A stretch of 64,000 nucleotides of DNA from Dokdonella koreensis DS-123 (GTDB taxonomy: Bacteria > Pseudomonadota > Gammaproteobacteria > Xanthomonadales > Rhodanobacteraceae). Below the pieces are notes generated by a model that made no database searches, was not told the origin of the DNA, and saw only the letters and a list, made by a program, of their open reading frames with translations. A program made the translations under genes and the position numbers. Positions 48,204 through 48,522 of the stretch are shown piece by piece. The stretch covers positions 600,686-664,685 of the forward strand of contig NZ_CP015249.1 of the NCBI RefSeq assembly GCF_001632775.1. Reading direction: 5' to 3'. The first letter of the stretch is position 1. The number at the start of each line of letters is the position of its first letter.

Positions 48204-48522
48204 GGGCCGTTAGCTCAGTTGGTTAGAGCAGGGGACTTGGTGGAGAGGCCTAAACGCCACGGCGCATGGCTCCTCCGTACGGGTTGCTCGGGGTAGGCGT
48301 GTCCTGCCCTGAAGTAGAACTTCTCAAATTCGGTGGACGCTAACGCGGCAATGCCGCCATGCCAACGCCGAGCGAAGCTCCCGCTGGGAGAACGTGTAGA
48401 GACTCGACGGGAAGGCCGAAAGGCAAGACAGAGTCCAGACCACGAACCGGAAACGGGCGGCGAAAGCCGAAGTGGTACGCATAATCCCTTGGTCGTAGGT
48501 TCGAGCCCTACACGGCCCACCA
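48204..48522 (+). tRNA. ileX: tRNA-Ile(CAU), split by a group I intron in the anticodon loop
   Basis: Exon 1 is 48204-48237 and exon 2 is 48480-48522. Joined, they give a 77-nt tRNA with CCA encoded: acceptor GGGCCGT/ACGGCCC, D-stem GCTC/GAGC, anticodon stem GGGGA/TCCCT, loop CT-CAT-AA, T-stem GTAGG/CCTAC. All four stems pair fully (one G-T in the anticodon stem). The CAU anticodon, together with the TCCCTTGGTC context, fits the isoleucine AUA-reading tRNA whose C34 is changed to lysidine by TilS, rather than initiator or elongator tRNA-Met. The intron lies between U33 and C34. ileX is used as the usual symbol for this isoacceptor. Confidence 0.88.
48238..48479 (+). ncRNA. Group I self-splicing intron in tRNA-Ile(CAU)
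   Basis: The 242-nt insert follows U33 and ends in G, as group I introns require. Core helices can be traced: P2 GGGTAGG/CCTGCCC (48291-48297, 48303-48309), P3 CTTCTC/GGGAAG (48320-48325, 48409-48414), P4 CGGTG/CGCCG (48331-48335, 48366-48370), P5a GCGGC/GCCGC (48345-48349, 48353-48357), P6a CTCCC/GGGAG (48378-48382, 48386-48390), P7 GACTC/GAGTC (48401-48405, 48431-48435), P8 GCC-GAAA-GGC (48415-48424) and P9 ACCAC/GTGGT (48439-48443, 48472-48476) enclosing two GAAA-capped hairpins. The joining sequence CAAATTCGG and the GTGTAGAGACT before P7 match my memory of the Azoarcus tRNA-Ile intron. P1 may pair exon GACU with GGTT at 48282-48285; that helix is tentative. There is no homing-endonuclease ORF. 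Confidence 0.87.

Follow-up and report, generated by a model that had tools for sequence, protein, structure and literature searches.

A group I intron of 242 nt interrupts the tRNA-Ile(CAU) gene of Dokdonella koreensis DS-123 between U33 and C34. The gene lies in a 64,000-nucleotide stretch of the genome (hereafter, the window), where the insert starts directly after U33 and has G as its last base, and where joining the two exon halves forms a full cloverleaf with the anticodon CAU (Table 1; insertion sites are written in the form U33/C34). Our best explanation, held with high confidence, is a compact group I ribozyme that would splice at U33/C34 and that belongs to a lineage of Planctomycetota and a few gammaproteobacteria. 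The initial annotation of the window had proposed two exact halves of tRNA-Ile(CAU) separated by 242 nt and a group I intron at this site. Its coordinates proved exact and the joined cloverleaf complete, and the class assignment is borne out by the core helices, by covariation in 18 introns and by the match of a covariance model.

The expected gene was also returned by the tRNA finder. With introns allowed, and applied to the stretch around the gene, ARAGORN reports a single tRNA, interrupted at position 35 by an intron of 242 nt and labeled Met(cat); with introns off, it reports zero tRNAs in the 64-kb window. The name tRNA-Ile is based on the anticodon CAU, the separate Met genes and the presence of TilS, the tRNA body alone being equally close to tRNA-Lys. 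The genome (G000) is a single contig of 4,446,619 bases with 46 tRNAs matched by RF00005, all typed by ARAGORN from 45 loci. Two of these carry CAT (L044 and L067), which we take, from general tRNA features, to be the elongator Met and initiator tRNAs. A pattern for the 3' half with CAT, allowing up to two mismatches, has five matches in G000: the interrupted tRNA-Ile gene, both Met genes and a pair of sequences with TT at the anticodon. The exact pattern for an intact tRNA-Ile(CAU) has zero matches on the contig. The second copy that the initial annotation had allowed for was thus not found in G000 by RF00005 with ARAGORN typing or by the pattern searches, which agree. A search for TilS, also suggested there, scored 159.3 bits, above the cut-off of 93.6; C34 can therefore be modified to read AUA. 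Two further group I introns reside in G000, in tRNA-Leu(UAA) at U34/A35 and in tRNA-Leu(CAA) at C34/A35; the 46 typed tRNAs include neither Leu(UAA) nor Leu(CAA) in intact form.

We built a covariance model (R1) of 161 positions from 14 sequences, excluding this genus. R1 has a single match in the window at E <=10, with E 5.1e-37. The general group I model RF00028 (Intron_gpI), which the initial annotation had expected to match, finds nothing: the window intron gives no match at the gathering cut-off, nor at E 10 when 521 nt are searched, remaining below the membership cut-off of 50 bits, and the whole of G000 gives zero matches at E 0.001. Among four control loci, the sole RF00028 match is an intron at U36/A37 in the congener G002 (62.9 bits), the two Leu introns of G000 and the Ile intron of G001 being unmatched; some Leu introns in other genomes of the family score below the cut-off. 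Of seven loci with related introns one passes, L307 of the gammaproteobacterium G536, at 57.2 bits. L132, L134 and L123 from Planctomycetota (31.6, 28.4 and 28.3 bits) and L308 of G512 (22.3 bits) remain below the cut-off, and Psittacicella L163 and Opitutaceae L160 are unmatched at E 1. The passing of L307 rules out that the whole U33/C34 lineage is invisible to RF00028. The class assignment to group I is right, and the window member is beyond the reach of this model. As neither RF00028 nor a tRNA finder run without introns picks it up, the gene can leave its genome seemingly without a tRNA for AUA.

Intron architecture and splice site

Table 1. Coordinates of the split tRNA-Ile(CAU) gene and its intron in the window, and of other split tRNA loci. 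Percentages are paired cells in the alignment of 18 introns; double changes are double-sided changes.
Feature	Position	Strand	Evidence
5' exon of tRNA-Ile(CAU), acceptor to U33	48204..48237	+	cloverleaf, ARAGORN intron mode; GGGCCGTTAGC...GGGGACT
Group I intron, 242 nt	48238..48479	+	R1, 142.6 bits at 48326-48485; pair counts
3' exon of tRNA-Ile(CAU), C34 to CCA	48480..48522	+	ARAGORN intron mode; CATAATCCC...CCA
P1 5' strand, G30 A31 C32 U33 + U+1 G+2	48234..48239	+	96.3%
P1 extension hairpin, 48242-48250 with 48268-48276	48242..48276	+	86.8%; double changes in 6/8 pairs
Internal guide sequence CGGGUU (P1 3' strand)	48280..48285	+	GGGUUGC invariant in 18 introns
P2 hairpin	48289..48311	+	53%; variable, poorly aligned among relatives
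P3 5' strand, partner 48409-48414	48320..48325	+	100%; double changes in 4/6 pairs
P4 5' strand, partner 48366-48372	48329..48335	+	99.2%; double change in 1/7 pairs
P5	48339..48362	+	outer 2 pairs 100%; next 4 pairs 91.4%, all 4 with double changes
P4 3' strand	48366..48372	+	pair counts, 18 introns
P6	48378..48390	+	4 pairs 98.6%, 3 with double changes; fifth pair 70.6%
P7 5' strand, guanosine-binding helix, crosses P3, partner 48431-48435	48401..48405	+	100%; double changes in 2/5 pairs
P3 3' strand	48409..48414	+	pair counts, 18 introns
P8, loop GAAA in the window	48415..48424	+	100%; double changes in 3/3 pairs
P7 3' strand	48431..48435	+	pair counts, 18 introns
P9 (CCAC/GUGG) and two GAAA-capped hairpins, 48447-48456 and 48459-48468	48440..48475	+	100%
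Terminal guanosine (omega G)	48479	+	invariant in 18 introns; G here also demanded by the scan pattern
tRNA-Leu group I introns of G000	L031, G000:C1:1731207-1731398; L111, G000:C1:2468600-2468797		
Initiator-like tRNAs split at U33/C34	L120, L121, L124, L126, L128, L135, L141, L142, L147, L148, L154, L155, L167		

The pairing scheme was evaluated on an alignment of 18 introns, including that of the window, chosen from 33 extracted by script; the 15 left out are near-duplicates, Verrucomicrobiota types and some long introns. Standard pairs occupy 91.0% of 1158 cells; shuffles give 80.4%, and slid controls do not exceed 48.7%, although the slid control flatters a structure taken, as here, from the window sequence alone. 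Double-sided changes are the better evidence: they occur in 35 of the 66 pairs and in 131 cells, and none of 500 shuffles reaches any of five pair measures. The crossing helices P3 and P7 are completely paired in all 18 introns, both with double changes. The pairs of P9 never vary, while three of the six pairs in the P9 hairpins show double changes. P2 is retained by eye in the sister genome G001 with a G-C to A-U change. All core helices are intact in the window intron, P10 is weak by eye, and the folding energy of the insert is mildly unusual (z -2.07, equaled by 4 of 200 shuffles). The elements that define a group I structure, a P3-P9 core in which P3 and P7 cross, a guide with a U-G pair and a final G, are all present.

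The 5' splice site is less constrained by covariation. Five of the six P1 pairs are invariant and hence silent as covariation evidence; the sixth is GC in eight introns, AU in three, GU in three and broken in four. U33 stands opposite an invariant G in 18/18 introns, which is the U-G pair characteristic of a group I internal guide. We rejected a P1 formed by a short hairpin right after the exon, as in tRNA-Leu introns, because in the relatives a long P1 extension precedes the guide. In the window intron this extension carries CCUAA...AUGG, which resembles the 11-nt GAAA-tetraloop receptor. The P1 extension of L307 reads CCTAAG...TATGG, the classic letters of the same receptor. As both U33 and U+1 are opposite G, the cut is not fixed by pairing alone; U33/C34 is favored by the 7-base loop, by the terminal G and by L159, a relative with C at +1.

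Other readings of the insert fare poorly. A 5' cut one base later, after U+1, would leave an 8-base loop and make the tRNA a frameshifter or, if the 3' cut moved too, would give a UAU anticodon without need of TilS. In all 18 introns the guide GGGUU can indeed pair a G with either U+1 or U33. Such a cut is nevertheless extremely unlikely: ARAGORN types the 8-base-loop form as an unknown tRNA with the anticodon tcat, the UAU form would require an intron ending in C and not G, TilS is retained in G000, and L159 with its C at +1 is one of 34 tRNA-Ile relatives. It is scarcely credible that the insertion is dead or decaying and the gene a pseudogene. The rarity of AUA codons would agree with this, albeit indirectly, but the intron is better conserved than the downstream ORF, its core helices are intact in the window, and no other tRNA-Ile(CAU) was found in G000. 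Finally, the position before the anticodon and the group I core with its covariation make a protein-spliced tRNA intron of archaeal or eukaryal type vanishingly improbable.

The group I intron is very likely functional. Exon bases G30-U33 of the precursor would pair with the guide CGGGUU, and a guanosine in the P7 binding site would cleave behind U33 (48237), opposite G. In the second step, U33 would attack behind the terminal G at 48479 and become joined to C34, restoring the 7-base anticodon loop of the sole tRNA found in G000 that would be able to read AUA. TilS would subsequently make lysidine at C34 and enable the reading of AUA. Transcription, self-splicing, the lysidine step and the need for growth are what we infer from this arrangement.

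Relatives of the intron and known systems

We scanned genome contigs with a strict pattern and obtained 57 loci. The rule for recognizing the 5' half demanded T at position 33, so that the constancy of this base is no evidence. In 34 of the loci both halves of tRNA-Ile(CAU), as read from the exons, flank an intron at U33/C34, the genus contributing one. By record titles, mostly of MAGs and with some near-duplicates, these loci fall roughly into 24 from Planctomycetota (two Kuenenia), six from Verrucomicrobiota (one Akkermansia), two from Psittacicella and one each from Dokdonella and Blastochloris. The remainder includes one other CAU tRNA (L149), nine loci without a 5' half by this rule, four of which look like chance matches, and 13 initiator-like tRNAs split at the same site (Table 1). 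The introns of these initiator-like tRNAs are of group I and measure approximately 200-300 nt; eight of the genes are in records titled as Patescibacteria or as groups that we assign to them, and five in records titled 'bacterium'.

Closer to D. koreensis, the Ile intron is rare. Among 233 genomes of the family, it is matched over its full length only in G000 and G001 and partially in 19 other genomes. Of 23 partial-match loci inspected, 21 have the tRNA-Leu exon AAAATCC (four of them being the Leu loci that G000 and G001 contain) and two are without the motif. In the order, R1 at E 1e-9 finds matches in 31 of 398 genomes drawn; the 30 loci inspected (35 matches) comprise 23 with AAAATCC, five with CTAAG, one intron at U36/A37, and the window as the only one with a CATAA exon. 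In the class, R1 at E 1e-15 finds matches in 31 of 369 genomes. Three of the 28 new loci have the U33/C34 site in a tRNA-Ile-like gene (G536 at 166 bits, G512 at 136.9 bits and G550, of the Verrucomicrobiota kind, at 117 bits), and six were not readable by scripts. By eye, the Verrucomicrobiota introns are without the long P1 extension and have the guide GGGUC instead of GGGUU. The window intron displays the features of the Planctomycetota type: the U33/C34 site, the guide GGGUUGC, a P1 extension with CCU...GG and a GUAGAA block before P3.

Some cyanobacterial tRNA-fMet introns carry a homing endonuclease. One locus among ours, L215 of G052 (1616-2032), contains a 138-aa ORF for a PD-(D/E)XK endonuclease (PF11645, E 3.4e-37) just upstream of a group I core with a tRNA-Arg-like 3' exon; its 5' half was not found, and we regard it as a candidate homing intron.

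A midpoint-rooted tree of 55 introns over 197 columns, with 11 Leu introns included, joins the window intron and that of G001 to Psittacicella with an ultrafast bootstrap of 77. This group joins the Planctomycetota introns with a support of 44, the deeper joins being weak. Separate branches hold the Leu introns and the Verrucomicrobiota introns, the latter together with L166 of Planctomycetota and L159 of Blastochloris, and the introns at U36/A37 are far off. Given this tree, introns may have entered the U33/C34 site on more than one occasion. Judged by the tree and the shared motifs, the window intron has its nearest relatives among the U33/C34 introns of Planctomycetota and of some gammaproteobacteria, few in number, and not among the introns at the Azoarcus site. 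A local origin, with one of the G000 tRNA-Leu introns copied into tRNA-Ile, is very unlikely. The window and Leu introns have near-identical P9 ends, the broad class is the same, R1 finds both Leu introns (87.1 and 93.3 bits), and the support of 44 for the competing Planctomycetota grouping is low. However, the tree places the window intron with Psittacicella and apart from the Leu clade, and the long P1 extension, the GGGUUGC guide and the GUAGAA block, common to the Planctomycetota introns, are absent from Leu introns.

The initial annotation had seen in the insert an Azoarcus-related intron at a different site of the same tRNA. The difference in site is correct, although it is not private to this genome, being shared by the 34 tRNA-Ile loci; a close relation to the introns at the Azoarcus site is not supported. 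According to PMC6274277, the CAU anticodon is the splice triplet of the Azoarcus intron in vivo, with the site at U36/A37. The Azoarcus BH72 intron is likewise small, of group I and located in the anticodon loop of tRNA-Ile(CAU), but it splices after CAU, whereas the window intron would splice before it with another guide, the two being compared by site. The two introns of the genus at U36/A37, which we used as stand-ins for the Azoarcus type, lie far away in the tree and pass RF00028, while the window intron at U33/C34 is unmatched.

Bacterial tRNAs are well known to carry group I introns (PMC3984707, PMC4033280, PMC5733544). Introns of this group in tRNA-Ile2 of Acidovorax and Burkholderia are noted with tRNAscan-SE 2.0 in PMC8450103; the tRNA and the consequence, a gene missed by a tRNA finder, are the same as in the window, but the bacteria are different. 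PMC8450103 also cites tRNA-fMet introns in the cyanobacteria Synechocystis and Gloeobacter, which, like the window intron, interrupt the anticodon loop of a tRNA with a CAU anticodon. At the level of titles and abstracts, key older primary papers aside, we found no description of a tRNA-Ile intron at U33/C34 or of tRNA introns in Planctomycetota. The kind of intron is therefore known, group I introns in tRNA-Ile(CAU) having been published, and the U33/C34 site was not found described. The cyanobacterial tRNA-Leu(UAA) intron belongs to group IC3. R1 also scores a Lyngbya intron with tRNA-Leu(UAA)-like exons, at 75.2 bits. This kind of intron resides in another tRNA, with exons ACTT/AAAATCC and a short P1 region.

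Origin of the split gene and decoding of AUA

The genus contains intact and interrupted forms of the same gene. Among ten genomes, introns at U33/C34 are present in G000 and G001, and introns at U36/A37 (ACTCAT/AATC), three bases further along, in G002 and G003. The gene is intact in G004, G005, G008 and G009, and G007 matches the intact pattern; no tRNA-Ile(CAU) gene is shown by G006, which is 85% complete. The introns of G002 and G003 share the tRNA and the genus with the window intron but differ from it in site, in their guide GGUG, in passing RF00028 and in their distant place in the tree. Introns at U36/A37 are common in the family, where the intact pattern is found in 158 of 233 genomes and an RF00028 match above the cut-off in 43; the 30 best-scoring RF00028 loci (L247-L276), all inspected, are U36/A37 introns in tRNA-Ile(CAU) with the junction CAT/AATC. 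At a further locus, L200 (G009:C1:787.8k-788.1k), tRNA-Ile(CAU) occurs twice; 186 bases separate the copies, and in one of them the 3' end of the acceptor is altered.

G000 and G001 share 93% identity in the intron, compared with 80% over 1,093 bases of the downstream ORF (76% in protein, 87% in the first 364 bases), so that the intron looks conserved. The exons of G000 are identical to those of three sister tRNA-Ile(CAU) genes at only 63-66 of 77 positions, the exons of G000 and G001 differing from the genus type, and the genus-type 3' half is absent from both genomes. In the available stretches, the surroundings of the sisters' genes show no match to the G000 locus beyond the exon, and the upstream gene of this locus was not found in the G001 stretch examined. 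A transferred gene replacing the native one would explain the divergent exons, the unmatched surroundings and the missing genus-type half, and the intron probably reached the genus by lateral transfer; alternatively, the gene may stem from an old duplication or may have diverged strongly.

The tRNA body is identical to the genome's own tRNA-Lys(CTT) at 66/77 positions, which equals the best sister tRNA-Ile(CAU) (66/77), and to the elongator Met at 57/79. A Lys tRNA of a relative reaches 72/77. The tRNA-Ile(CAU) of G536, which shares the intron type, reaches 65/74 with CCA excluded, as G536 does not encode it. On these comparisons, the exons may or may not derive from tRNA-Lys(CUU). A broader scenario, plausible enough to propose but still doubtful, is that the tRNA gene and its intron were imported together and displaced the native tRNA for AUA, as part of a lineage that spread between phyla at one site, largely below the RF00028 cut-off, with a second lineage on the other side of the anticodon in the sister genomes.

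The initial annotation had held that splicing would be essential for growth unless another copy exists. This is a fair inference from the single gene, tempered by the rarity of AUA: 33 ORFs with high GC3, picked from the window by a crude rule, contain 2 such codons among 14,599. Slow splicing might accordingly be tolerated. The intron documents a tRNA-Ile(CAU) lineage with its own insertion site that is present in more than one phylum. With intact genes and introns at both U33/C34 and U36/A37, the genus offers a natural setting for intron gain, loss and transfer in a needed gene. If the proposed import is true, the decoding of a sense codon in this bacterium would hang on an imported ribozyme.
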